This document shows positions 18,821-31,603 of a stretch of DNA of 64,000 nucleotides, piece after piece. Each line of letters opens with the position of its first letter. Within the stretch, counting starts at the first letter, position 1. The DNA comes from Clostridia bacterium (GTDB taxonomy: Bacteria > Bacillota > Clostridia > Oscillospirales > Acutalibacteraceae): assembly GCA_017473165.1 (NCBI GenBank), contig JAFUNA010000014.1:124001-188000 (forward strand), given 5' to 3'. The notes under the pieces were generated by a model, which did not search any database, was not told the DNA's origin, and saw nothing but the letters and a program-made list of their open reading frames with translations. The position numbers and the translations under genes were made by a program.

Positions 18821-19768
18821 ATGAAAATTTCCGTGCTTGACGGCTTCACAACAAATCCGGGTGACCTTTCATGGGATTGGCTCAAGGAATGCGGCGAATG
18901 CACGGTTTATGAGCGAACTCCCGCAGAGCTCATCGCCGAACGAACAAAGGACTGTGAAATCGTTATAACCAATAAAACTCCCCTTCGCAAAGAGCTTCTC
19001 AAAACTCTGCCGAAGCTTAAATATATCGGACTTTTAAGCACGGGATTTAATATAGTTGACTGGGAATACTGCAAGGAAAAAGGCATTCCCGTGTGTAACA
19101 TTCCGTCATACAGCACCTCTGCGGTTGCGCAGCTTGTTTTTGCCCTCATTCTTGAGCACACAAACGCCGTTGCAATTCACAGCAGCTCTGTGCATTCGGG
19201 CGAATGGGCGGCAAGCAAGGATTTCTGCTATTGGAAAACTCCGCTCACCGAGCTTGACGGCAAAACGCTGGGCATAATCGGCTTCGGAAAAATCGGAAAA
19301 GCCGTTGCAAAAATTGCTGCCGCCTTCGGCATGAAGGTTATTGCATCAACCAACCACCCTGCACCCTTCGAAAACGTTGAATTCTGCGGCAGAGATGAGC
19401 TGCTTTCAAAAAGCGATTTTGTTTCGATACACTGTCCGCTTACACCGCTGACAGAAGGAATGGTCAATGCGGATTTTCTTTCAAAAATGAAGCCCTCCGC
19501 TTTTCTTGTTAACACTTCAAGAGGTCAGGTTGTTGACGAAAACGCCCTTGCAGACGCCCTCAAAAGCGGCGTTATCGCAGGTGCGGGTCTTGACGTGATG
19601 ACCGTTGAGCCGCCCAAATCGGATAATCCCCTTTTCGGTCTTTCAAACTGCCTCATCACTCCGCACATCGCATGGGCAGGCTTTGAAACAAGAGAAAGAC
19701 TTATGAAAATCGCCAAGGAAAATGTTCTTGCTTTTCTTGACGGCAAGCCTCAAAATATCGTCTATTAA
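18821..19768 (+). CDS. D-2-hydroxyacid dehydrogenase
   Basis: A 315-residue NAD(P)-dependent oxidoreductase of the D-isomer-specific 2-hydroxyacid dehydrogenase family. The Rossmann motif is LGIIGFGKIGKAVAK near residue 150. The catalytic Arg lies in VNTSRGQVVDE, Glu in DVMTVEPPKSDNP and His in ITPHIAWAG. These match glycerate/hydroxypyruvate-type dehydrogenases; the exact substrate is uncertain. An extended -10 promoter and AAAGGGT SD stand upstream. The heptose-type kinase gene follows 15 bases after the stop, so it may feed or divert a sugar-acid intermediate, which is inference. Confidence 0.88.
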   Translation: MKISVLDGFTTNPGDLSWDWLKECGECTVYERTPAELIAERTKDCEIVITNKTPLRKELLKTLPKLKYIGLLSTGFNIVDWEYCKEKGIPVCNIPSYSTSAVAQLVFALILEHTNAVAIHSSSVHSGEWAASKDFCYWKTPLTELDGKTLGIIGFGKIGKAVAKIAAAFGMKVIASTNHPAPFENVEFCGRDELLSKSDFVSIHCPLTPLTEGMVNADFLSKMKPSAFLVNTSRGQVVDENALADALKSGVIAGAGLDVMTVEPPKSDNPLFGLSNCLITPHIAWAGFETRERLMKIAKENVLAFLDGKPQNIVY

Positions 19769-19783
19769 AGAAGGTCGTTTGAT

Positions 19784-20761
19784 TTGATTATTTCACGGAC
19801 TCCCGTCAGAATGTCTTTTTTCGGCGGCGGCACGGATTTTCCCGAATTTTTCAACGAATATTCGGGTGCGGTAATTTCCACAACATTTGATAAATACTGC
19901 CATGTAAATGTCCGTCACCTTCCCGAGCTTTTTGACTACAAATCCTATCTTGCCTATGCACAGATTGAAAAAGTTAATTCCGTTGAAGAAATAAAGCACC
20001 CTGCCATACGCAACGCAATGAAATGGCTCAATCTTGAACGCATAGCCCTCAATTATGATGCCGACCTTCCGTCAAAAACGGGACTCGGCACAAGCAGTGC
20101 TTTTTCTGTCGGACTTCTCAATGCTTTTTACACCATGCAGGGCGTTTCCAAAACAAAGCGTGAGCTTGCTGACGATGCAATTTATCTTGAACGCATCCTC
20201 TGCGAGGAGGACGGCGGAATTCAGGACCAGATTGCCGCATCCTTCGGCGGATTTAACCGCATCGATTTTTCCCGTGAGGGCTACACGGTAAAGCCTGTTG
20301 ATTTTTCGGATGAAAGAAAAAACGAGCTTAACGATAATCTTCTGCTTTTCTTCACGGGTCTTTCAAGGTTTTCATTCCAGATTCAGAAAACCACAAAAAA
20401 GATGCTCGGCAAACGCACGTCGGAGTTAATCAAAATCCGTGACATGGTTGACATTGCGGAAAAAATTCTCACCGATGAAAACCGTTCACTTGACGAATTC
20501 GGTGCTCTGCTCAACGAAACATGGCAGCTGAAAAGAAGCATAAGCAGCGAAATTTCAACCGATGCAATCGATTCCGTTTACATAAAAGCCATGAATGCGG
20601 GTGCACTCGGCGGCAAGCTTCTCGGTGCAGGCGGTGGCGGATGCCTTTTGTTCTATGTTCCAAGGGAAAAGCAGGAATCAGTCCGCAACGCACTCTCGGA
20701 TTTGCACGAGGTTAAATTCAGATTTGAAAATGAAGGCACAAAAATAATAAGTAACTATTGA
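19784..20761 (+). CDS. GHMP kinase, D-glycero-D-manno-heptose 7-phosphate kinase-like
   Basis: A 325-residue kinase starting at a TTG (MIISRTPVRMSFFGGGTDFP). The opening RTPVRMSFFGGGTD and ATP loop SKTGLGTSSAFSVGLLNAF (near residue 97) are typical of HddA-type kinases, which form heptose 1,7-bisphosphate, and of related sugar 1-kinases such as fucokinase-like enzymes. Motif 3 is KLLGAGGGGCLLFYVP near 280. An AAGG SD lies nine bases upstream. The adjacent guanylyltransferase and HAD phosphatase favour a role in activated heptose synthesis, but the sugar is not proven by sequence. It is second in a two-gene unit ended by a terminator. Confidence 0.85.
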   Translation: MIISRTPVRMSFFGGGTDFPEFFNEYSGAVISTTFDKYCHVNVRHLPELFDYKSYLAYAQIEKVNSVEEIKHPAIRNAMKWLNLERIALNYDADLPSKTGLGTSSAFSVGLLNAFYTMQGVSKTKRELADDAIYLERILCEEDGGIQDQIAASFGGFNRIDFSREGYTVKPVDFSDERKNELNDNLLLFFTGLSRFSFQIQKTTKKMLGKRTSELIKIRDMVDIAEKILTDENRSLDEFGALLNETWQLKRSISSEISTDAIDSVYIKAMNAGALGGKLLGAGGGGCLLFYVPREKQESVRNALSDLHEVKFRFENEGTKIISNY

Positions 20762-20766
20762 ATTTT

Positions 20767-20799
20767 GCCACGGTATTTCTTACCGTGGCTCTTGCTTTT
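20767..20799 (+). terminator. Terminator after the GHMP kinase gene
   Basis: Nine-bp perfect stem GCCACGGTA with TACCGTGGC, 5-base loop, then a T-rich tail. It separates the dehydrogenase-kinase unit from the cupin operon. Confidence 0.8.
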
Positions 20800-20800
20800 C

Positions 20801-20829
20801 TTGACATTCTCATTTTAATATGTTAACCT
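20801..20829 (+). promoter_or_regulatory. Candidate promoter for the cupin-nucleotidyltransferase-radical SAM operon
   Basis: TTGACA at 20801-20806, 17 bases, TAACCT at 20824-20829 with an extended TG. TATACT at 20829-20834 is an alternative -10 at poorer spacing. It is located just after the terminator. Confidence 0.5.
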
Positions 20830-20867
20830 ATACTTTGTGTAAATATTTTGTTGAACGGAGTAATCAC

Positions 20868-21233
20868 ATGATAAAAATTCTCACTCCCGACTTCGTTTTT
20901 GAGGACGAAAGAGGAACCCTTGTTCAGCTTGTTCATGAGGGCTACAATCAGATAAACGTTGTAACCTCAAAAGCAGGCGTTATCAGAGGGAATCATTGCC
21001 ACAGGCTTAACCGTGAGGGTTTTTATGTTGTTGAGGGCTCATTTACCGTCAACGTTCACAAAGGCAACGAAAAAGCAAGCCATACCTTCAAAAAAGGCGA
21101 TATGTTTCTTATCGAGCCCGAGGTTATGCACTCGTTCATTTATCTTGAGGACACAACTCTTATCGGCTTTTACGACAAAGGCGTTGAACTGCCCGACGGA
21201 ACAAAAGACATTATTCCGGAGGATAACGGCTGA
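20868..21233 (+). CDS. Cupin-domain sugar-modifying protein (WxcM/FdtA-like)
   Basis: A 121-residue single-cupin protein. The motif GVIRGNHCHRLNREGFYVVEG supplies the two cupin histidines and glutamate, and DMFLIEPEVMHSF gives the second motif. Length and pattern resemble sugar 3,4-ketoisomerase/WxcM-type or capsule-cluster cupins acting on nucleotide sugars. The ATG at 20868 (MIKILTPDF) with a CGGAG SD is preferred to an upstream codon at 20820 that lacks one. Its TGA overlaps the ATG of the nucleotidyltransferase gene by one base. Isomerase or epimerase function is inference. Confidence 0.75.
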   Translation: MIKILTPDFVFEDERGTLVQLVHEGYNQINVVTSKAGVIRGNHCHRLNREGFYVVEGSFTVNVHKGNEKASHTFKKGDMFLIEPEVMHSFIYLEDTTLIGFYDKGVELPDGTKDIIPEDNG

Positions 21234-22486
21234 TGGAAGCAATTGTTCTTGCAGGCGGCTTCGGAACAAGGCTCCGACCCTGCGTTGAAAATCTGCCAAA
21301 ACCCCTTGCTCCCGTTTGCGGCAGACCTTTTCTTTTGTATCTGCTCGATTATCTTTATGTCAACGGCGTGCACCGTACAATAATCTCAACAGGCTACATG
21401 GCAGACGAGGTTGTCAAGGCAGTCGGAAGCAAGCACAGAGGCATGGTCATTGACTATTGCCGTGAGGAAGCTCCGCTCGGTACAGGCGGCGGCATAAAAA
21501 AAGCTCTTTCAATGTGCAAAGACGATTTTGCGGTTGTTATCAACGGCGACACCTTCTTTGACGTTGACCTTTTTGAAATGAGAAAATTCCACCGCAGCAC
21601 AGGCTGCCCCGTAACCCTTGCAGCAAAGGAAATTCCCGATGTTTACCGCTCGGGCTGCATACGCACCGAAAACGGCAGGCTTACGGGCTTTTCAGAAAAA
21701 GGGATAACGGGTGCAGGCAAAATCAACGGCGGAATATATTTTATAAACAAAAACGCACTTGAAACCATATCCGAAGATAAGTTTTCTTTTGAAAAAACTG
21801 TTCTTGAAAGCGGAGTTTACGAAATCGGAGTTTTCGAAAGTGACGGTTATTTTATTGATATCGGCATTCCCGAAGCGTATAATCTTGCACAAACCGACTG
21901 CAACAAGCTGAAATCAACCCGAAAAAGAAGGGCGGTTTTCATTGACCGTGACGGCACGGTAAACAAAGACACCGTTCACCTTTTCCGCAAGGAGGATTTT
22001 GAGTTTCTGCCCGACGCAGACAAAGCGATTGCGGAAATAAAAAAATTTGATTATCTTGCCGTTGTTGTCACAAATCAGGCGGGAATTGCAAAAGGGCTTT
22101 ACTCCCCCGATGATGCCGATTCGCTTCATTCATACATTGATTCGCTTCTCAACGAAAAGCTTTCGGTTATTGCAGACGGCTATTATTACTGTCCGCATCA
22201 TCCCGATGCAGTTGTTGAAAAATACAAAAAAATCTGTTCCTGCCGCAAGCCGCAGCCGGGGCTTATTCTCCGTGCGGTTTCGGATTTTGCCGAAATCGGA
22301 ATTGAAATCGACCTTGAAAAATCATTTATGGTCGGCAACCGCAGCACCGATACCCTTGCAGGATTGAATGCAGGAATCAAAAACAGCATTCTTATCGGCT
22401 CCGACGAGCCTTTTAATGCCGAAACAGCTTCGGCTCACTACGAAAGTCTTTATGACTTTTCCCTAAAAATAAAGCAGGTGTTTTAG
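21233..22486 (+). CDS. Bifunctional sugar nucleotidyltransferase-HAD phosphatase (HddC-GmhB-like fusion)
   Basis: A 417-residue two-domain protein. Residues 1-222 are a sugar-phosphate nucleotidyltransferase: EAIVLAGGFGTRLRP, LPKPLAPVCGRPFL and the metal-binding INGDTFFDVD, as in D-glycero-alpha-D-manno-heptose 1-phosphate guanylyltransferase. Residues 228-417 are a GmhB-type HAD-IIIA phosphatase: FIDRDGTVN, VVVTNQAGIAKG, and the zinc loop CPHHPD...CSCRKPQPGL. The late metal-binding motif reads MVGNRSTD, with Asn where GmhB has Asp. Together the domains would dephosphorylate heptose 1,7-bisphosphate and then activate the 1-phosphate. It is coupled to the cupin upstream; the radical SAM gene starts one base after its stop. 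Confidence 0.87.
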   Translation: MEAIVLAGGFGTRLRPCVENLPKPLAPVCGRPFLLYLLDYLYVNGVHRTIISTGYMADEVVKAVGSKHRGMVIDYCREEAPLGTGGGIKKALSMCKDDFAVVINGDTFFDVDLFEMRKFHRSTGCPVTLAAKEIPDVYRSGCIRTENGRLTGFSEKGITGAGKINGGIYFINKNALETISEDKFSFEKTVLESGVYEIGVFESDGYFIDIGIPEAYNLAQTDCNKLKSTRKRRAVFIDRDGTVNKDTVHLFRKEDFEFLPDADKAIAEIKKFDYLAVVVTNQAGIAKGLYSPDDADSLHSYIDSLLNEKLSVIADGYYYCPHHPDAVVEKYKKICSCRKPQPGLILRAVSDFAEIGIEIDLEKSFMVGNRSTDTLAGLNAGIKNSILIGSDEPFNAETASAHYESLYDFSLKIKQVF

Positions 22487-22487
22487 T

Positions 22488-24398
22488 TTGAAAAATGTTT
22501 ACTTCATTCAGGTGGGTTTTGCCTTTGACAAATCCGTCTATCTGCCCTACGCAACGGGCACAATCGTTGCGTACTGCAAAAGCTTGCCTGAAATCACGGC
22601 TGAATATGCGTTCCCGGAAATTATTTTCCGCAGAGACGATGTTGACAATATCGTAAACAGCATGGTCAATCCTTATATCGCCGCATTTTCGACCTATGTA
22701 TGGAATGTTGAGTTCAACAAAGCTCTCGCCAAAGCCGTTAAAGAGAAGTTCCCTCAATGCAAAATCGTTTTCGGCGGTCACAGCGTTTCCGACCGCATGG
22801 AATTTCTCGACGAGGAATATATTGACATTCTCACCCTCGGTGAAGGTGAAGAAGTTACCGCAAACCTGCTTTTAACTTTCAAAAACAACGGCAGTCTTGC
22901 CGAATGCAAAGGAATTGCATTCAGAGATGATAACGGAAATAAAATTTTAACAGAGTCCAACTGTCCCGAAACCGTTGAGCACTACCCTTCACCCTATTTA
23001 ACAGGCGTTTTTGATTCAATAATCGAAAAAAATCCCGATACGATGTTTGACACAATCATCGAAACAAACAGAGGCTGCCCCTATAACTGTGCATACTGCG
23101 ACTGGAGCAATCACAAAAAGCTCCGTCTTTTCCCGATTGAAAAGGTCAGGGGCGAGCTGAAATGGCTCTCCGACCACAACATCGAATATTGTTTTTGTGC
23201 AGACTCGAATTTCGGAATGTTTGACCGTGATGTTGAAATTGCGGAATATATCGTTGAGCTTAACAAAAAAACCGGATTTCCGAAGGTTTTTCGTCCCTGC
23301 TACGAAAAAAACAGTGCAGAAAGAGTTTTCAACATTTCAAAAACGCTCAATTCCAGAGGTCTTGACAAGGGTGCAACAATGGCATATCAGACCCTCTGCG
23401 ACGAAGCACTGAAAAACATCAACCGAAAAAACCTCACAATGGAGCATTTTTCGGACCTTATGGCAAATTACACAAAGGCAAACATCCCCACCTATTCCGA
23501 GCTGATTCTCGGCTTGCCCGGCGAAACGGCGGAAAGCTTTTGTCAGGGTCTTTGCAAGCTTCTTCGTGCGGGTCAGCACAATTCAATAAGCGTTTACTAT
23601 TGCGAGCTGCTGCCCAACGCACCCATGTGCAAGCCCGAATATATGGAAAAATATAAAATTGAGTCCATGAAGGTGCAGTTTAACCATATCCACTCTGCGT
23701 GCGGCAAGAAGGATACCATTCCCGAATATTCATATCTTGTTCGCTCAACAAGCACAATGCCCCGTGACGCATGGGTTTATGCAAATCTCTTCTCAATCTG
23801 CCTTCAATGCTTTCACAGCCTCGGTCTGCTGCGATTCTTTGCAATCTACGCCTACCACGCAATGGGCGTTGATTATTATGACTTCTACAAGGGTCTGCTC
23901 GATTTCTGCCTTAACGATGACGGACTTATCGGAGAGCTTTTCAGAGAAATAAAGCGAAAGCTTGACGGCTCGCTCGAGGGCGAATGGAATCACAGCAATC
24001 CCGTTTTCGGAAACGTTACATGGTTTTTTGAGGAAGGTCTTTTCCTTGAAATTCTTTACAACTTCGGCGAGTTTGAAAAAATTATAGAAAAATTTGTCAA
24101 ACCCTTGGGCTACAACGAAAAAATTTATCCCCAGCTTCTTAAATTCCAGCTCAACGCAATCAAACGTCCGTTTGAAAACGGAAAAGAATTTGAATGCGAT
24201 TTCGACTTTCTTTCCTACTTCAGAAGCATGGGCTCAAACGAAAAAACCGAGCTTTCCGAGAAAAAAACAACCTATATTTTCAAGGCAAAAGAGCAATATG
24301 AGGAATGGCCTCGCTTTGCAAAGGAAATTGTATGGTACGGCAGACGTAAAGGTGCAACACTTTACACGAACGATTCAAGCATGATTGAAGTCAAATAA
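22488..24398 (+). CDS. B12-binding-type radical SAM protein, paralogue 1
   Basis: A 636-residue protein starting at TTG. Residues 1-130 form a cobalamin-binding-like Rossmann domain (IVFGGHSVSD, LTLGEGEE) without the DxHxxG cobalamin ligand motif. The radical SAM core begins near residue 190: ETNRGCPYNCAYCDWSN supplies Cys197, Cys201 and Cys204 for the [4Fe-4S] cluster. SELILGLPGETAESF is near the end of the barrel. A helical C-terminal half includes LGLLRFFAIYAYH and ends with IVWYGRRKGATLY, a motif shared with the two paralogues at 24473 and 27318. It directly follows the nucleotidyltransferase-phosphatase, implying a sugar or glycan substrate; reaction unknown. Confidence 0.85.
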   Translation: MKNVYFIQVGFAFDKSVYLPYATGTIVAYCKSLPEITAEYAFPEIIFRRDDVDNIVNSMVNPYIAAFSTYVWNVEFNKALAKAVKEKFPQCKIVFGGHSVSDRMEFLDEEYIDILTLGEGEEVTANLLLTFKNNGSLAECKGIAFRDDNGNKILTESNCPETVEHYPSPYLTGVFDSIIEKNPDTMFDTIIETNRGCPYNCAYCDWSNHKKLRLFPIEKVRGELKWLSDHNIEYCFCADSNFGMFDRDVEIAEYIVELNKKTGFPKVFRPCYEKNSAERVFNISKTLNSRGLDKGATMAYQTLCDEALKNINRKNLTMEHFSDLMANYTKANIPTYSELILGLPGETAESFCQGLCKLLRAGQHNSISVYYCELLPNAPMCKPEYMEKYKIESMKVQFNHIHSACGKKDTIPEYSYLVRSTSTMPRDAWVYANLFSICLQCFHSLGLLRFFAIYAYHAMGVDYYDFYKGLLDFCLNDDGLIGELFREIKRKLDGSLEGEWNHSNPVFGNVTWFFEEGLFLEILYNFGEFEKIIEKFVKPLGYNEKIYPQLLKFQLNAIKRPFENGKEFECDFDFLSYFRSMGSNEKTELSEKKTTYIFKAKEQYEEWPRFAKEIVWYGRRKGATLYTNDSSMIEVK

Positions 24399-24417
24399 CC
24401 GAAAACCTAATAATATC

Positions 24418-24449
24418 AAAAGGAGCTGCGTTTTTTGCAGCTCCTTTTT
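24418..24449. terminator. Bidirectional terminator between two convergent radical SAM genes
   Basis: Twelve-bp stem AAAAGGAGCTGC with GCAGCTCCTTTT, 7-base loop, T run on both strands. Confidence 0.92.
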
Positions 24450-24472
24450 GCGTACTGTAAAGCGGTTTGACT

Positions 24473-26389
24473 TTACATAATTTCAATTGTGTCCTTGTAT
24501 GAACGGCTTCCCATTTTGCCGTACCAGACAACTTTTCTGCCAAATTCCTCCCAGCTTTCGGCAGGGTCGCTGTCCGTCATGAGCAATTCGAAGCTGCCTT
24601 TGACAGGCGGCTCATATTCGTTGACGTAAATCTTCTTGAAATAGTTATAAAAATCAATTTCCGATTTGCATTTTACCTTCTTTTCGCAGGGCTTACGAAG
24701 CACCGCCTTCTGATAGAAGAAAAGCTGCGAAAGAACTTCTTTATCATCTATAACCGATGAAAGATACGGCATCATTTCCTCATAAAACAATTCAAGATTG
24801 CGGCAGAGATTGAGAAAAATGTATTCGTAGTTTTCCCACACAAGATTTCCCGTAAACGGCACGGTCAGTCTCGGATTTTCGCCTTTGGCAAGGCGTGCAA
24901 AATAATCCTTAACCGTTTCGAATATGCTGCAGGTAAAAGGCACATTACCGTTTTCAATATATTCTATAAGCCCCTCATAAAAGCTTCTGTAGCTCTTTTT
25001 CAGCTCATAATATGCATAAATCGCAAAGCAGCGAAGCAATCCGCAGCCGTGCATAGCCTGTGTGAATCCGCCGAATGCCGCACTTTTCTGCCACATTTCA
25101 CAGGGCATACTGTCGGTCTGCGTTATGATATCCGTTTTTTCGGGAATATAATAGGCATCTGCATCGCAATGATAGCGTACAATTTCCGAATTGGATGTTT
25201 TTATGCCGAATTTTTTCATGTAATCGGGCTGCCCGAGAATCGAATTGGGCAGCACAATGCAGTTATAAACCTCAAATATAAAGTGCTGACCGATTTCAAA
25301 CAGCTTGCAGATTCCGTCAACAAAGCTGTCATAGGTTTCGCCGGGCAAACCGAGAATAAGCTCGGAATAAACCTGAAGATTTTCTTCGTGATACACCCCG
25401 AAATCCTTTTGAAAATTCTCAAGGGACATATTCTTTCTGCCAATGTTTTCGAGCACAACAGGAGAAAGACTCTGGAGCGAAACGGTTGCCCCTGCCCTGT
25501 CGATTCCTTTGCGGTTAAAGCGTCTGACAATCTCAAGCACTCTTTCTCGGTTGCTTTTTGAGTAGTTTATACGCACACGCTCGGGGTAGCCGTATTTTTC
25601 CTTTGCTTCAACAAAAGCATCGGCTATCAGCAAATCATCGGGTCTTATGCCGAAATTTGCATCCGCACCCCATACAAATCTGATTTTGTTTCTGCCCATC
25701 CACTCAATTTCCGCAAAAACCTTATCGAGCGGGAAAAATCTTGTTTTTTCCTTAAGCAGACCCCAATCGCAATAGGCACAGCGGTTAGGGCATCCTCTGC
25801 TTGTTTCAATGATTGTGTTAAACTCAAGCTCGGGATATCTTTCAAGCAAGCCGTCAAACCAGCCGTCAAGATAGGGTGAAGCATAATCATCGCCGCAAAG
25901 AAACTTTTCTTCGCTCATAACGCAATTTCCGCCGTTTCTGTATGCAATGTTAGGCACGGCGGAAACATCCCCGTCAAGAGCTTCAAGCAAACTCCCGAAG
26001 GTTATTTCACCCTCACCAAAGCAAAGATAATCAACCTGCGGATTATTTTCAAGAAACGATGTGTTGTGCGGAATATTGTGACCGCCGAAAACGGTTACGC
26101 AGTCGGGGAACATTTTCTTTATTTCTGCCGCAAGTGCAAGATTATACTCCGTATTCCAGCAGTAGTTTGAAAACCCGACAACAGCAGGGCTTTCCATTTC
26201 CGCAACAACCTGCTCAATATTTTTTCTGATAAATATAAAATCCTTGAATTCGTAAAGAGAAGCTACCCGACTGCTTCGCCAGGCATTTGCAACTATAACT
26301 CCCGCCGTGTAGGGCAGGTAAACCACTTTTGAATCCTTGCCCGAGGAAACATCCGCCTGGACAAAATAAACATTGGCTTTTGCTGACAA
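24473..26389 (-). CDS. B12-binding-type radical SAM protein, paralogue 2
   Basis: A 638-residue protein from a TTG start with weak SD. The cobalamin-like domain shows VFGGHNIPHN and LCFGEGE, again without DxHxxG. The cluster-binding motif is ETSRGCPNRCAYCDWG, and SELILGLPGETYDSF follows. The C-terminal half shares GLLRCFAIYAYYE and ends in VVWYGKMGSRSY. It faces paralogue 1 across a shared terminator. It lies downstream of paralogue 3 and a membrane protein gene on the same strand, with a moderate hairpin at 26420-26443 before it. The TTG start is supported by alignment of its opening ANVYFVQAD with the other two N-termini. Function unknown. Confidence 0.85.
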   Translation of the reverse strand: MSAKANVYFVQADVSSGKDSKVVYLPYTAGVIVANAWRSSRVASLYEFKDFIFIRKNIEQVVAEMESPAVVGFSNYCWNTEYNLALAAEIKKMFPDCVTVFGGHNIPHNTSFLENNPQVDYLCFGEGEITFGSLLEALDGDVSAVPNIAYRNGGNCVMSEEKFLCGDDYASPYLDGWFDGLLERYPELEFNTIIETSRGCPNRCAYCDWGLLKEKTRFFPLDKVFAEIEWMGRNKIRFVWGADANFGIRPDDLLIADAFVEAKEKYGYPERVRINYSKSNRERVLEIVRRFNRKGIDRAGATVSLQSLSPVVLENIGRKNMSLENFQKDFGVYHEENLQVYSELILGLPGETYDSFVDGICKLFEIGQHFIFEVYNCIVLPNSILGQPDYMKKFGIKTSNSEIVRYHCDADAYYIPEKTDIITQTDSMPCEMWQKSAAFGGFTQAMHGCGLLRCFAIYAYYELKKSYRSFYEGLIEYIENGNVPFTCSIFETVKDYFARLAKGENPRLTVPFTGNLVWENYEYIFLNLCRNLELFYEEMMPYLSSVIDDKEVLSQLFFYQKAVLRKPCEKKVKCKSEIDFYNYFKKIYVNEYEPPVKGSFELLMTDSDPAESWEEFGRKVVWYGKMGSRSYKDTIEIM

Positions 26390-26419
26390 ACAATCACACG
26401 CTTTCTAAAAAGTTTACAA

Positions 26420-26443
26420 ACGGGTGTACTTTTGCACACCCGT
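26420..26443 (-). terminator. Moderate hairpin between the membrane protein and radical SAM paralogue 2
   Basis: Stem ACGGGTGT with ACACCCGT, 8-base loop, followed on the minus strand by a sparse T tract. It is possibly a partial terminator that lowers paralogue 2 expression relative to the genes upstream. Confidence 0.45.
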
Positions 26444-26452
26444 AATGCCGAT

Positions 26453-27304
26453 TTATTTACCAAGCTTTTTTGCCGCAAGGGCATAAAGCTCATCAAATGT
26501 TTTCTTTGCGGCTGTATCGCCGTTTGAAATAACAATAAGTGCAAGAGACGTTGCCACTACAATCATGTTTGCGTTTCTTGAGCTCATAAGAGTTATAGGA
26601 AGTGCCGCTGCCGCCATTGAAACATAGCCGAATGCTTCAATTTTGCTGCCCTTTTCTTTAAAAGCTCTGAATGCAACGTAAAGAGCAAGAACAGATATTG
26701 CCGCAACCGCAGCAAAATTCAGCCAATATGCCGCAATCGAACCAATGTTGAAGGAATCCTTGAAGATAACGAAGCAATACACCGAAGCACCCAAAAGAAC
26801 AGCTTCGGAAATTCCGAAAATGATTTTGTCAAAAACGGATGCTGCTTTTACCTTATGCCAGTTAAGAGTGAAGCCTGCCGCAAAAAGCACGGGAATTGCC
26901 GTAATTGCCGTATACTGGAAGAAACAATGCGAAAGGATTGCCAGAGCGGCTGCCGCAGGAAGATATCTTATTTCTTTCACGAACAGAAGTCCGCCCGCAA
27001 AAACCGCAAGCATTGCAAAAACCTCAACGCTGATTTCACGGTAATCAAATGTGCCGACAATCAATCCGCAGGCTGAAATTGCTCCGAGAATATTCTGAAC
27101 GGAAAGAAGTCTTCCGTCAGCGGGAATATTCATGCTTATCAAAAACGAATACGCAAACGCACCTGCAATCAAAGCGGCGAAAACATCAAGTTGTATCATA
27201 CCTCTTTGTCCCGCACCGTGTAATCCCTTCAGAATAATAAGCACAAAACACAATGCAAATACAATCAATCGGTTTTTTAACTGTGAAGCTGTTTTTTCTG
27301 ACAT
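26453..27304 (-). CDS. Polytopic membrane protein of unknown function in the radical SAM operon
   Basis: A 283-residue protein with about eight to nine hydrophobic helices and short loops; I do not recognise the family. The N-terminal helix is LIVFALCFVLIILKGLHGAG. The short cytoplasmic C-terminus is DTAAKKTFDELYALAAKKLGK. The ATG at 27304 is preferred because GAGGTG lies six bases before it; an upstream TTG at 27325 overlaps the radical SAM gene. It starts 13 bases after radical SAM paralogue 3 and is almost certainly co-transcribed. It could be a transporter or scaffold for the pathway, which is speculative. Confidence 0.7.
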   Translation of the reverse strand: MSEKTASQLKNRLIVFALCFVLIILKGLHGAGQRGMIQLDVFAALIAGAFAYSFLISMNIPADGRLLSVQNILGAISACGLIVGTFDYREISVEVFAMLAVFAGGLLFVKEIRYLPAAAALAILSHCFFQYTAITAIPVLFAAGFTLNWHKVKAASVFDKIIFGISEAVLLGASVYCFVIFKDSFNIGSIAAYWLNFAAVAAISVLALYVAFRAFKEKGSKIEAFGYVSMAAAALPITLMSSRNANMIVVATSLALIVISNGDTAAKKTFDELYALAAKKLGK

Positions 27305-27317
27305 TTCCTGCACCTCG

Positions 27318-29246
27318 TTAATCAATATATTTCACTTTAGGTTTATAGCAATCGGATGAATACAAAGCGGCGGATTTGTTTCTGCCGTACCACACAACGG
27401 CACACGCATAATCATAAAGGCTGCCGCAAAATTCACCCTTGTCAAAGGTTAAAACTGTTTTTATTCTTTCGGGAGGAGCATACTTTCCCTCATAAATTCT
27501 TTTGTAGTAGCAGTAAAAATCATAATCGGAGTAAATTTCAGCTGTTTCGCATCCGACTCTTTTCAGAATTTTACGCTGATAATCAAACACGGCTTTTATA
27601 TTTTCTTCGCCGAATTCCGAAGCAAAAAAAGCTTCAAGCTCGTCATAGATTTCATCGGCAATTTCGAGGGATTTAAGAAAATAAATCTCATCAAACTGCC
27701 AGCAGATGTCGCCGAGAGCCTCACAAGGCACAGCCCATGAATTCTCACGGCGAATCATCCCTTCCGCAAAGCCTTTGACAAGGCTGAAAACCTTGTTGCA
27801 AGCCTTGTTTTCGGGATTTTCGGAAAAAGAGGCAATCGATGAATAAATATCAAGATAGCTCATTCCGAATTCATTGCGAAGATAAATCGCAACCGCTCTG
27901 AAAAGTCCTATGTTGTGAAAAGCCTGAATAATGCACGAAAAAACAACACAGTAAACCCAGTCCTCACGGCTCAAGGTGTTTGTTTCGATAACCGCATTGT
28001 TATATTCCGTTATTTCACAGCTGATTTTTGAGCTGCAATGAGCCTGTGCAAATGGAGTTTTTACGGTTTTTATTCCATATTTTTCAACCGACTCCTCCGA
28101 CCCCATTTCGGAATTCGGCAAAAGGTCACAGGTATAAACCTGGATTGCCTTGTGCTGTCCGTACTCAAGCAAATCGCAAAGCCCCTTCGTGAAGCTTTCC
28201 TTTGTTTCGCCCGGAAGTCCGAGAATAAGCTCCGAGGAAGTTGAAATTCCAAGGCGGCTGTATTCACTCATCAGCTCACGGAAATGGTCAAGAGAAATAT
28301 TTTTTCTGCCGATGTTTTCAAGCACGGTCGGTGACAAGCTCTGAAAAGAGAGAGTTTGTGCCTTATCAAGCCCGAATTCGTTAAATCTCATGCAGATTTT
28401 TTTCACAAATTCAGTTCGGTTTTTCGTGAAGCAGACTCTGAAATTCTGCGGAAAGCCCGTCTTCTTTTTTGAAGATATTATGTACTCCGCAATTTCTTCG
28501 TCACGGTCAAAAAGTCCGAAATTCCCGTCTGCGCAGTATACATATTCGATGTTATGAGCGGCAATCCAATCAATTTCCGCCTTGATTCTTTCCATCGGGA
28601 AAAGCCTTACACGGCTTCCGAGAGTGCCCCAGTCGCAGAATGAACAATGAAACGGGCAGCCCCTGTTTGTTTCAAGAATGGCAGAAAACTGCGTTTCGCC
28701 GTCGGCTATTCCGTCAAAAATCCCGTTAAGATAGGGTGACGGATATTCGCTCATGCAAAAGCCTTCTTCTCGGGTTTTGACAAAGCCGCTGTCTTTTCTG
28801 AAAGCAATGTTTGCAATGCTTTTGAGGTCTGTGCCGTTCAGAAGTGAAAGAACGCATTGCCTGAAAGCTTCCTCACCCTCACGGTATATCACGATATCAA
28901 CCTCGGGGCATTCCTCGAGCGTTCCGAAATCACGCAAAACGTTGTGTCCGCCGAAAATAATTTTCGTTTCGGGATTTAACTTTTTTATCTCTTTTGCAAG
29001 AGCCTTGTTATATTCATAGTTCCAAACGGAACAGGAAAATGCAACAATAAAGGGGTCTTTCAGCCTTAAAGCCGCCTGCTTTATTGGCTCATGGGTATAA
29101 ACAAAGCCGCCCATCCGGCAGGAATTTTTTATTGTTTCGTCTGCAAAAGCATATGCGGCAACGCAGCCCGAAGCATAGGGGATGTAAACGGATTTTCTGT
29201 CGTTGCCGTAAACATTATTTGCCTGAACAAAATATATGTTTTTCAA
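27318..29246 (-). CDS. B12-binding-type radical SAM protein, paralogue 3
   Basis: A 642-residue protein from TTG, with GGGGGGATGA as SD. The cobalamin-like domain has FGGHNVLRDFG and YREGEEAF, without DxHxxG. The cluster motif is ETNRGCPFHCSFCDWG; SELILGLPGETKESF and VVWYGRNKSAALYS are shared with the paralogues. It resembles paralogue 1 more closely than paralogue 2 in the CADxNFGxFDRD stretch. It is first in a minus-strand operon driven by a consensus promoter at 29277-29305 and is divergent from the epimerase gene. The substrate is unknown; the genomic company suggests a nucleotide sugar or glycan. Confidence 0.85.
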   Translation of the reverse strand: MKNIYFVQANNVYGNDRKSVYIPYASGCVAAYAFADETIKNSCRMGGFVYTHEPIKQAALRLKDPFIVAFSCSVWNYEYNKALAKEIKKLNPETKIIFGGHNVLRDFGTLEECPEVDIVIYREGEEAFRQCVLSLLNGTDLKSIANIAFRKDSGFVKTREEGFCMSEYPSPYLNGIFDGIADGETQFSAILETNRGCPFHCSFCDWGTLGSRVRLFPMERIKAEIDWIAAHNIEYVYCADGNFGLFDRDEEIAEYIISSKKKTGFPQNFRVCFTKNRTEFVKKICMRFNEFGLDKAQTLSFQSLSPTVLENIGRKNISLDHFRELMSEYSRLGISTSSELILGLPGETKESFTKGLCDLLEYGQHKAIQVYTCDLLPNSEMGSEESVEKYGIKTVKTPFAQAHCSSKISCEITEYNNAVIETNTLSREDWVYCVVFSCIIQAFHNIGLFRAVAIYLRNEFGMSYLDIYSSIASFSENPENKACNKVFSLVKGFAEGMIRRENSWAVPCEALGDICWQFDEIYFLKSLEIADEIYDELEAFFASEFGEENIKAVFDYQRKILKRVGCETAEIYSDYDFYCYYKRIYEGKYAPPERIKTVLTFDKGEFCGSLYDYACAVVWYGRNKSAALYSSDCYKPKVKYID

Positions 29247-29276
29247 CGTTCATCCCCCCGCTACATAATTATATTT

Positions 29277-29305
29277 ATTATAATACTATAAATAAAGATT
29301 GTCAA
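29277..29305 (-). promoter_or_regulatory. Consensus sigma-A promoter of the radical SAM 3 operon
   Basis: Minus strand TTGACA (29305-29300), exactly 17 bases, TATAAT (29282-29277): a perfect match to both elements, about 31 bases before the TTG start. Confidence 0.88.
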
Positions 29306-29330
29306 CCAAGCAAAATATTTGTGTTGTAAA

Positions 29331-29359
29331 TTGACTATTAAGCCGTAATGTGGTAAGAT
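29331..29359 (+). promoter_or_regulatory. Sigma-A promoter of the epimerase gene
   Basis: TTGACT at 29331-29336, 17 bases, TAAGAT at 29354-29359, 32 bases before the ATG. It is back-to-back with the radical SAM 3 promoter. Confidence 0.6.
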
Positions 29360-29391
29360 TATAATATCATCTTAACGGAAGTGAATTTTTA

Positions 29392-30327
29392 ATGCTTGAT
29401 ATTCTTGTAACGGGCGGTGCGGGCTACATAGGCTCCGTGCTTGTTCCCCTTCTTTTGTCAAAGGGCTGTAAGGTTACGGTTCTTGACAACCTTTTTTACA
29501 ATCAGAATTCGCTGCTCGAATGCTGTGCGAATCCTAATTTCAGAATGATAAACGCCGATGCACGCAACGAAAATGCCGTCAGAGAGGCAATGAAAGGCAA
29601 GGATTATATCATTCCCCTTGCCGCTCTTGCAGGCTTTCCCATCTGCGACAAAGAGGCGTGCTCCGCATATTCGATAAACCTTGACGCAATCAAAATGATT
29701 CTCCGCCTGCGTGAAAAGGGTCAGAGAATTATTTTCCCCTGCACCAACAGCGGCTACGGTTTGGGCGAAGGCGAAAAATTCTGCACCGAAAGCTCACCTA
29801 TCAGACCGATTTCAATCTACGGCAAAAGCAAGGTTGAAGCAGAGGCTGCCGTGCTCAGCGAAAGCGGCACAACCGCATTCCGATTTGCAACCCTTTTCGG
29901 TGCTTCTCCAAGAATGAGGACTGACCTTCTTGTTAACGATTTTGTTTACAGGGCTGTTTTTGACAGAACCCTTGTTGTTTTTGAGGGCAGCTTCAAAAGA
30001 AACTATCTTCATGTCAGAGATGCCGCAAACGCATTCTGGTTTGCAATTGAGAACTTTGAAAAAATGGAAGGCGGCACACACAACTGCGGTCTTTCCGATT
30101 CGAATCTTTCAAAAATCGAGCTCTGCGAAAAAATCAAACTCATTCTTCCCAAGTTTACATATATCGAGGCTCCCGTAGGCGAAGACCCCGACAAAAGAAA
30201 CTATATTGTTTCAAACGAAAAGCTTGAAGCTCTCGGCTGGAAGCCGCACTATTCTCTTGACGACGGCATAAGAGAACTCACAAATGCCTATGAGATAATC
30301 AAAAACAATAAATATTCCAACATATAA
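29392..30327 (+). CDS. NAD-dependent sugar epimerase/dehydratase (extended SDR)
   Basis: A 311-residue extended short-chain dehydrogenase. The nucleotide-binding motif is VTGGAGYIGSVL at residues 6-17, the catalytic pair is in YGKSK near 143, and TNSGYG precedes it. The family includes UDP-glucose epimerases, GDP- or dTDP-sugar dehydratases and reductases, and the sequence does not decide among them. GGAAGTG SD stands before the ATG. It sits divergently from the radical SAM 3 operon and ends at its own terminator. A role in modifying the same nucleotide sugar made by the 19784-22486 enzymes is inference from location. Confidence 0.85.
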   Translation: MLDILVTGGAGYIGSVLVPLLLSKGCKVTVLDNLFYNQNSLLECCANPNFRMINADARNENAVREAMKGKDYIIPLAALAGFPICDKEACSAYSINLDAIKMILRLREKGQRIIFPCTNSGYGLGEGEKFCTESSPIRPISIYGKSKVEAEAAVLSESGTTAFRFATLFGASPRMRTDLLVNDFVYRAVFDRTLVVFEGSFKRNYLHVRDAANAFWFAIENFEKMEGGTHNCGLSDSNLSKIELCEKIKLILPKFTYIEAPVGEDPDKRNYIVSNEKLEALGWKPHYSLDDGIRELTNAYEIIKNNKYSNI

Positions 30328-30331
30328 AAAT

Positions 30332-30359
30332 TCGGGTGTACCCAAAGCGGTACACCCGA
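30332..30359. terminator. Bidirectional terminator after the epimerase gene
   Basis: Ten-bp stem TCGGGTGTAC with GTACACCCGA, 8-base loop; A/T-rich flanks give a T tract mainly for the minus strand. Confidence 0.75.
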
Positions 30360-30367
30360 TAATTATT

Positions 30368-31603
30368 TTATACTGTCCAGCCCTTCTGGAAGCATGAAGC
30401 ACATATAAGAAAATAGATTACAAGCAAAATTTCCTTATTTTTAAAGAATGATTTCAATGTATCGATAGCCTTTTCAAATGCCTTATCTTTTGCTGCAAAC
30501 ATAAAGAATACAAATACAAATTGATTCAAAACACCCGTCTGAACCATTCGGCTGTAGTCTGTTGAGATAAGCCAGCTTACAGGAATAACAAGCATCGCAA
30601 GGATAAAGCAGGCAAAAACAAACTTCTGCAGCTTTGTTTCGGAATTTTTGATGCACAAAATCCAGACTGTAAGAAATCCCGCAGCAATAACCGCAAAAAT
30701 CGCAACAAGCGATATAATTCCGTCATAATTAACCGTACGGAATTCGGGAAGCTGACCCAGAATTGCCATAATAACAAGATTGAGCATTTCTGCCGTTGTC
30801 ATGTTGCTGAACGAATAGCCCGTTCCCTCATCGGATGCACTTCTGTAATAGAACAGCTCAAAGGGTCGCAATTCTTCGTATTCAAACTTTATGCCGCTCT
30901 TCTGCTCCATAATGTTCCACATTTCTTCAAAGGTCACAAACATATGGTCAGGAGCTTCAAACGCACAGTATGCCGTTGCCGCAACACAAAGAATTGCGGA
31001 CAAAAGGAAAATTATAAGATATGATTTATCCTCTTTTCTGTTAACCGCATAATAGAATGCAGCTCCGATAACGGCGATAAAAAATGCGTAAATATAGGAA
31101 AAATACACCATAACGCCGACAACCGAAAGCAGCGGCACAAACCAGCGGAGATACTTGTTCTGAAGGCAGATTACCGAAACGAGTGCCACAATGAACATAT
31201 GAACATCAAGCAGACCGAAGTATCTTGAAAAGCCGTACATGGTGAATGTTCCGAAAACAAAGAAAAGCACAAAAACAAACAGCGGTTTTTTGTATTCTTC
31301 CTTGACATTGCGGATTACCTGTCCGATAAGAATTGCAACGCCGAGCATTGCAAGCACAAGAACGGCTATCATGAAGCCCTTAAGCCATGCCGCCGTGGGG
31401 TTATCGGTCAGAAGGTTAACAACCGAGCCGACCAGCATTCTGGCGTTGATGCCCATGGAGTAGTCAATAAGATAATAGCTGTAAAAATCGTTTTCCATGT
31501 TGATAATCATTTCTCTGTTTAAAAACGCCTGAACACAGAAAACTATAAAGATGCCAAGCTCATAGCCAAAGCAAGAAAATATTTTTGAAACCTTGGTTTT
31601 CAA
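30368..31603 (-). CDS. Large polytopic membrane protein of unknown function
   Basis: A 411-residue protein with roughly ten hydrophobic segments. It has an extended extracytoplasmic loop (about 225-275, rich in Glu and aromatic residues, FEEMWNIMEQKSGIKFEYEEL) and a conserved-looking motif YSMGINARMLVGSVVNLL after the first helix. The layout resembles EpsG/GT-C-like polysaccharide membrane proteins, but I cannot assign a family. The start is a TTG with GAGGGTGA upstream. It begins 23 bases after the amino acid ABC ATPase gene, so it is probably read from that operon even though no transport role is evident. Confidence 0.65.
   Translation of the reverse strand: MKTKVSKIFSCFGYELGIFIVFCVQAFLNREMIINMENDFYSYYLIDYSMGINARMLVGSVVNLLTDNPTAAWLKGFMIAVLVLAMLGVAILIGQVIRNVKEEYKKPLFVFVLFFVFGTFTMYGFSRYFGLLDVHMFIVALVSVICLQNKYLRWFVPLLSVVGVMVYFSYIYAFFIAVIGAAFYYAVNRKEDKSYLIIFLLSAILCVAATAYCAFEAPDHMFVTFEEMWNIMEQKSGIKFEYEELRPFELFYYRSASDEGTGYSFSNMTTAEMLNLVIMAILGQLPEFRTVNYDGIISLVAIFAVIAAGFLTVWILCIKNSETKLQKFVFACFILAMLVIPVSWLISTDYSRMVQTGVLNQFVFVFFMFAAKDKAFEKAIDTLKSFFKNKEILLVIYFLICASCFQKGWTV

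Follow-up and report, generated by a model that had tools for sequence, protein, structure and literature searches.

The window considered here is a stretch of 64,000 nucleotides from a Clostridia bacterium (G000:C9:124001-188000), whose genome (G000) comprises 2.11 Mb in 38 contigs and is 88% complete. One locus in it carries genes for the activation of a heptose-type sugar, three radical SAM proteins of cobalamin type and two polytopic membrane proteins. The plus-strand run (18821-24398) contains, in order, a 2-hydroxyacid dehydrogenase, an HddA-like kinase, a cupin, an HddC-GmhB fusion and the radical SAM protein E1. The minus-strand run (29246-24473) consists of H3, MEM290 and F2. An SDR gene on the plus strand (29392-30327) lies after it, followed by MEM411 on the minus strand. 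All the genes named in a preliminary description of this locus were found where it had placed them, with support from Pfam and NCBIfam, and two are added to it, the 2-hydroxyacid dehydrogenase (18821-19768) and the second polytopic gene (30368-31603). Its count of four units is reached if the minus-strand gene 31603-30368 is included; the span it covered has three strand runs. The grouping is not due to chance, because orthologous loci keep it. As set out below, a predicted pathway of GDP-heptose C4-oxidation is associated with radical enzymes of the TokK/CysS type, and this association is conserved and real.

The sugar-activation genes are identified here at family level. The first gene of the plus run (18821-19768) encodes a D-2-hydroxyacid dehydrogenase family protein (PF02826/PF00389); in all ten syntenic loci compared, its counterpart is 79-85% identical and immediately precedes HddA. 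The GHMP sugar kinase that follows (19784-20761, plus strand) is HddA-like, of the heptose 7-phosphate kinase type (NF049969, 143.5 bits, cut-off 600); its best solved relatives are 'sugar kinase' entries together with the heptose-phosphate kinase entries 3k85 and 4n3o. The cupin (20820-21233, plus strand; PF14667) probably starts at about 20868, judged by eye, and is a candidate epimerase acting on a 4-keto sugar. Cap5F is its sole solved relative at an expect value (E) of 1e-3, and a weak one (E 1e-4). A member of this cupin family directly follows the SDR orthologue in 13 of 84 fetched loci. The HddC-GmhB fusion (21233-22486, plus strand) combines a putative sugar-1-phosphate guanylyltransferase with a 1,7-bisphosphate 7-phosphatase. 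It scores 150.6 bits with the GmhB model TIGR00213, above the cut-off of 149.6, and 173.8 bits with the HddC model NF049965, below the cut-off of 300. The best solved relatives of the fusion are 6jq8/5xhw and 3l8e/2gmw. Entries named '6-deoxy-D-mannoheptose pathway protein' and heptose bisphosphate phosphatases are among the solved relatives of the kinase and the fusion. These relatives and the passing GmhB score uphold the earlier assignment of the genes to GDP-heptose activation.

The SDR (29392-30327, plus strand) was previously described as an epimerase, a label that probably does not fit its best match. This is 6vo6/6vo8 (E 6.9e-107), with residues 4-310 of the SDR aligned on 5-311 of 6vo6 over 307 residues without gaps; the next match has E 3e-25. 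We take 6vo6 to be Cj1427, the GDP-heptose C4-dehydrogenase. The part of the literature consulted on Cj1427 states that it oxidises C4, that its product is GDP-4-keto-heptose and that alpha-ketoglutarate recycles the bound NADH (PMC10680097).

The three radical SAM proteins are E1 (22488-24398, plus strand), the core paralogue, and F2 (24473-26389, minus strand) and H3 (27318-29246, minus strand), members of an accessory cassette. E1 matches PF04055 and PF02310 as well as NF033712 (242.8 bits, cut-off 700). F2 and H3 were assigned by Pfam, NCBIfam and motif, and H3 matches TokK with E 6e-85. With lengths of 636, 638 and 642 residues they bear out the earlier account of three proteins of about 640 residues with a cobalamin-like N-domain: PF04055 is present in all, and the B12-binding PF02310 exceeds its cut-off in one (44.3 bits) and falls just below it in two (28.6 and 31.5 bits against 32.1). 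A B12-binding N-domain followed by a radical SAM core with CxxxCxxC is the arrangement of the TokK/CysS/KedN5 class. A search of the genome brings the number of such paralogues to six, of which half lie in the window and half on contig C34. The CxxxCxxC cysteines (197/201/204) and Trp72 of E1 are invariant in all six, and this Trp aligns with W76 of TokK and W75 of CysS. A profile built from the six matches TokK with E 2e-138 (profile positions 4-565 of 639) and CysS with E 1e-72, the only solved relatives at E 1e-20. The sections consulted of one study place this Trp under the cobalt in both CysS (W75) and TokK (W76), and describe both enzymes as iterative methylators, TokK of a carbapenam and CysS of cystobactamid precursors (PMC12846815). 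A second source, in the part consulted, agrees for TokK (PMC13331322). From the nearest families, the invariant cysteines and the Trp, the expected chemistry of the window paralogues is a predicted cobalamin-dependent radical C-methylation. Among the four chemistries offered earlier (C-methylation, deoxygenation, epimerisation and ring change), C-methylation is the likeliest, TokK and CysS being the nearest solved relatives.

The distribution of these genes was followed in a sample of 300 genomes of the same family, with relatives of the radical SAM proteins and the SDR taken at E 1e-60 and those of HddC-GmhB at E 1e-40. A radical SAM relative occurs in 33 genomes, the SDR in 18 and HddC-GmhB in 23, two of these last matches covering the first domain only. 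Every one of the 18 SDR genomes holds a radical SAM relative, compared with 33 of 300 overall (Fisher 3e-20, a value that, for counts over related genomes, ignores shared ancestry and overstates independence). Ancestry as the sole explanation is argued against by genera g4, g18 and g56, for each of which the sample includes a genome with both genes and a genome without either (G138/G003, G230/G018 and G174/G056). The association is closest for relatives of E1. E1-type genomes number 19, that is, 18 with a match of at least 49% identity, a cut chosen after the list had been seen and with at most four candidates scored per genome, plus G013, with a match of 56% cut at a contig end. The SDR is present in 17 of these 19 and in one of the 14 genomes with other paralogues only; conversely, 17 of the 18 SDR genomes hold an E1-type relative. 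Where HddC-GmhB and the SDR are both present, a radical SAM relative was found in 17 of 17 genomes; with HddC-GmhB and no SDR it was found in one of six. These counts indicate that it is the C4-oxidised branch that the radical SAM proteins accompany, and not heptose activation as a whole. One genome (G184) has the SDR and, in the 300-genome search, no HddC-GmhB match. In a class-wide sample of 341 genomes, a radical SAM relative was detected only in G000 and G621, and the SDR only in G000.

Gene neighbourhoods show the same association. A scan of contigs gave 498 places that encode a relative, of which the best 80 (75 loci) were kept, a set biased to E1 relatives; ruminant gut samples are the stated origin of many of the records. 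In a midpoint-rooted tree of 183 sequences the E1 clade has 62 tips (support 97). For 38 of the 62, HddA, HddC-GmhB or the SDR lies within 10 kb, and some of the others are near contig ends. Orthologues of 22488-24398 are not located mostly away from sugar genes, the pattern that would have told against the earlier proposal. The association also holds at a distance. For 22 loci, picked by eye, with neither HddA nor the SDR near the E1-like gene, the SDR was found elsewhere in 19 of 22 genomes (three more loci of this kind, L056, L074 and L084, were left out). In L074 seven radical SAM paralogues stand in a row. The tie between radical SAM proteins and heptose that had been proposed is retained for E1 orthologues, which track the SDR, and loosened for the other paralogues, which also occur in loci where no heptose-gene relative was seen and in G621.

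Ten loci share the left flank of the window (GalK, DedA). Five of them also have the ABC transporter genes of the right flank, 85-97% identical in L032, L033 and L034 and 38-76% in L029 and L030. At this site the core genes are 62-95% identical and the polytopic genes 22-37%. E1 is present in all ten (78-81% identity), always in the order HddC-GmhB then E1, and the SDR is 89-95% identical in the six loci where it is visible. The content between E1 and the SDR is variable. L029, L032 and L033 have no extra radical SAM gene there; the window and L030 have F2 and H3, and L034 has two others. Longer radical SAM sets occur in L021, L022, L023, L027 and L041, mostly running past the fetched DNA; the SDR of L023 has the opposite orientation, and H3 lies on its far side. 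An F2 orthologue (73%) was found in one of the ten loci (L030), and H3 orthologues (73-74%) in two (L030 and L023). In this combination of constant and exchanged genes the site appears to resemble an antigen-diversity locus.

The membrane proteins are the least conserved products of the locus. MEM290 (26453-27325, minus strand), with 7 hydrophobic segments, evolves very fast and is 22-30% identical in the three syntenic relatives aligned. MEM411 (30368-31603, minus strand), with 8 hydrophobic segments, is also fast evolving; it is 34-37% identical in five syntenic relatives and has relatives in 31 of 84 fetched loci. Neither protein has a Pfam or NCBIfam match at E 1e-3, and Pfam gave scattered weak matches only for 33 members of the MEM411 family. 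A role of MEM411 in glycan transfer, polymerisation or export may be suggested.

A second locus of the same genome, on contig C34 (L009:1885-16563), packs a gene for a family-2 glycosyltransferase (GT2) and eight radical SAM genes into 15 kb; of the eight, three are TokK-type, three encode proteins of about 494 residues and two encode proteins of about 610 residues. It is tied to the heptose locus by the longer sets of the relatives, whose members are homologous (42-54%) to genes of the C34 locus, and by L027 and L041, where relatives of the 494-residue genes (71-77%) adjoin the dehydrogenase gene. The GT2-like family is present in 39 of 84 loci. The L009 member has no Pfam match at E 1e-3, and Glycos_transf_2 is recognised in 26 of 27 aligned members at E 0.1 (best 2e-14). 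In G000 the GT2 gene is on C34; as far as DNA was fetched, it is at the syntenic site in four of the ten relatives (L021, L023, L027 and L041).

Other radical SAM genes were encountered in less usual settings. A 107-kb T4-like viral contig with portal, capsid and prohead protease genes has two tandem TokK/CysS-like radical SAM genes (L020:4132-8554), preceded by a gene for a 290-residue protein to which Pfam gave no match. Their products are 35% and 31% identical to E1, and for the first one no relative was found at E 1e-40 in a phage collection. Contig C37 of G000 encodes a 513-residue protein that is radical SAM-like and matches E1 weakly (L012:4587-6128), downstream of a protein in which ferredoxin-type cysteine motifs were noted by eye.

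The preliminary description had reported GmhA to be missing from this stretch and to lie elsewhere, unless the substrate were not sedoheptulose 7-phosphate; GmhA need not be absent from the genome. A genome search found a candidate on contig C35, the SIS protein G000:C35:40176-40784, as the best in the genome (the next scores 25.8 bits). Its scores with TIGR00441, 116.7 and 126.4 bits, are below the cut-off of 209.45, and that model, which also responds in 9 of 14 control genomes, decides nothing alone. Of 15 solved matches to the protein, 13 are named phosphoheptose isomerase. In L037, HddA and HddC-GmhB are followed directly by a ROK kinase gene and then by a 49% relative. SIS relatives also adjoin HddC-GmhB in G036 and G161, two genomes with neither the SDR nor a radical SAM relative. 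Overall, a GmhA relative occurs in 83 of the 300 family genomes and in 14 of the 18 with the SDR.

The genes of the locus are closely packed. By mechanical open reading frame starts, 15 bases separate the 2-hydroxyacid dehydrogenase and HddA genes, the cupin and HddC-GmhB overlap by 1 base, HddC-GmhB and E1 are spaced by 1 base, and H3 and MEM290 overlap by 8 bases. Terminator-like hairpins lie between the converging genes E1 and F2 (24418-24448) and between SDR and MEM411 (30332-30359). Upstream of H3 is a promoter-like site (29305-29277, minus strand) that reads TTGACA-17-TATAAT and so agrees with the consensus at 12 of 12 positions. All three are consensus matches only, from a scan that returned 38 promoter-like and 29 terminator-like sites compared with about 20 and 17 in shuffled sequence. 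A further hairpin of 9 pairs (20767-20789), between HddA and the cupin, is inside the plus run, which may therefore be attenuated there or be two units. Neither Rfam, at gathering thresholds, nor a tRNA scan gave a match in the window.

Taken together, we consider it reasonably probable that a sugar derived from GDP-4-keto-heptose, or the glycan that contains it, is C-methylated by exchangeable radical enzymes. In the pathway we infer, GmhA, encoded on another contig, would supply heptose 7-phosphate for activation, the SDR would oxidise C4 to give a 4-keto sugar, and the cupin would epimerise a position adjoining the ketone. C4 reduction could be carried out in relatives by an RmlD-type SDR, which often precedes HddA and is present in six of nine genomes tested. 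E1 would add at least one methyl group to an unactivated carbon of the sugar, at the nucleotide-sugar stage or once the sugar has been transferred, with F2 and H3 as exchangeable extra methylases for other positions or residues. A family-2 glycosyltransferase (on contig C34; in relatives often close to these radical SAM genes) would assemble and export the glycan together with the hypervariable polytopic proteins. What the sequences show directly is the identity of the genes at family level, conserved residues, co-occurrence, synteny and cassettes that differ; substrate, methylation, product, the order of these steps and a location at the cell surface are all predicted. A broader reading is more tentative: that swapping radical SAM C-methylases around a fixed GDP-4-keto-heptose core creates serotype-like surface diversity, and that the methylase/GT2/polytopic module has been reused on another GDP-sugar in a second family. 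Each cassette set would then yield a different carbon-branched heptose, and the surface would be varied by radical C-C bond formation, not by change of glycosyltransferases alone.

Several observations weigh against the proposed pathway, in addition to the shared ancestry behind the counts and the late choice of the E1 cut. The HddA and HddC models, although the best NCBIfam matches for their parts, score below cut-off. The PDB name of 6vo6 is a generic one, putative sugar-nucleotide epimerase/dehydratase. Among NCBIfam models the radical SAM proteins score best with that of the KedN5 C-methyltransferase subfamily. The 210-270 bits reached are far below its cut-off of 700, and judged by these scores the proteins are related to KedN5 and fall outside that subfamily proper. 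A GmhA relative is lacking in four of the 18 SDR genomes. The SDR is lacking in the E1-type genomes G098 and G273 and in those of L054, L071 and L078 (L054 and G098 being one contig). At E 1e-15, G000, G145 and G291 gave no match to the RmlD-type SDR, which leaves the reduction step in G000 without this enzyme. This SDR has no solved relative at E 1e-12 and is for this reason only a candidate C4-reductase. The 2-hydroxyacid dehydrogenase is not claimed as a substitute for the C4-reductase; L024 and L031 show neither gene beside HddA.

The most serious alternative is that the radical SAM proteins methylate a target other than heptose, for example a lipid carrier (polyprenyl or another) or a specialised metabolite to which sugar is added afterwards. 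GDP-heptose would then be just one of the building blocks supplied alongside. Other paralogues do occur in loci where no heptose-gene relative is seen in the fetched DNA (L085, L087-L093 and L095). In L114:4056-18280 (G145:C11) a CrtI-like flavoprotein, scoring below cut-off, and a 2Fe-2S protein are encoded between the radical SAM genes. In G621, from another family, GT2, four TokK-type genes and a relative of MEM411 surround an 816-residue protein of the fucokinase/fucose-pyrophosphorylase type (L109:5238-18574), and no heptose gene is seen within this 20 kb locus. These loci also leave room for a module whose possible targets include more than one GDP-sugar, or a carrier that they have in common. 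The E1-type genes nevertheless track the C4-dehydrogenase (17 of 19 genomes versus 1 of 14), and in the window a single base separates E1 from the preceding HddC-GmhB, in an order kept at all ten syntenic loci, which makes a non-heptose target rather unlikely.

It is less probable still that the enzymes act on the sugar by deoxygenation, epimerisation or ring contraction, as AprD4- or OxsB-type proteins do. Cobalamin radical SAM enzymes that do not methylate exist (OxsB is called a non-methyltransferase in the part consulted of PMC13331322), and weak matches to the AprD4 model (20-30 bits) were obtained. The nearest families are by far C-methylases, with 210-270 bits for KedN5 and the matches to TokK and CysS, and the Trp found under the cobalt in those two enzymes is invariant in the six paralogues. 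Least probable, to the point of being very doubtful, is a variable genomic island in which the radical SAM genes hitch-hike without a functional tie to the heptose genes. Cassettes that differ among relatives at the same site and fast-diverging membrane genes are what an island would show, but E1 stays constant in all ten loci while other genes vary, and its association with the SDR persists when the two are apart in the genome. C-methylation of the heptose or its glycan is the preferred reading.

Radical C-methylation is known mainly from antibiotic and cofactor pathways. If the proposed pathway is true, uncultured gut Clostridia would use it on their envelope sugars as well. Carbon-branched heptoses are then predicted as a class, for which E1 and the C4-dehydrogenase would be a marker pair readable from genomes, and an unassigned group of cobalamin radical SAM paralogues (six in G000, seven in a row in L074) would gain a testable substrate. 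Variable cassettes at a fixed site would suggest selection on the chemistry, perhaps by phages or host immunity.

The closest known pathway is that for GDP-heptose in Campylobacter jejuni (GmhA, HddA, GmhB, HddC, Cj1427, a C3/C5-epimerase and a C4-reductase), and counterparts of its activation enzymes are present in G000. Shared features are the SDR matching 6vo6 (its identity with Cj1427 being presumed), a cupin and, in relatives, an RmlD-type SDR. There are also differences. HddC and GmhB are fused here, the closest solved relative of the window cupin is Cap5F and no heptose epimerase, and the locus adds a 2-hydroxyacid dehydrogenase and cobalamin radical SAM enzymes; a search for a C4-reductase in G000 gave none. 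The term 'radical SAM' occurs zero times in a term count of PMC10680097. In a capsule cluster associated with C. jejuni HS:19, a radical SAM metalloprotein gene adjoins a methyltransferase near a glycosyltransferase, labelled methylation / capsule biosynthesis in the part consulted of PMC8743553. That part lists the heptose genes under the non-HS:19 capsule, and the likeness of the radical SAM proteins is one of description.

The window proteins share with TokK, CysS and KedN5 the domain order, the CxxxCxxC motif, the aligned Trp and a long C-terminal part. Unlike TokK and CysS, they adjoin GDP-sugar genes and GT2 and are multiple per genome. The cobalamin-dependent GenK is likewise a radical SAM enzyme that methylates a sugar carbon, but in antibiotic tailoring, and is likened to the window proteins by description. 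Its target is C-6' of gentamicin X2, according to the part consulted of PMC4039129. Among the open-licence papers listed, judged by title and the start of the abstract, no report was found of a heptose locus with radical SAM/cobalamin proteins. The parts of the system are of known kinds; the combination of heptose C4-oxidation with a radical enzyme of the TokK/CysS type is a new variant.

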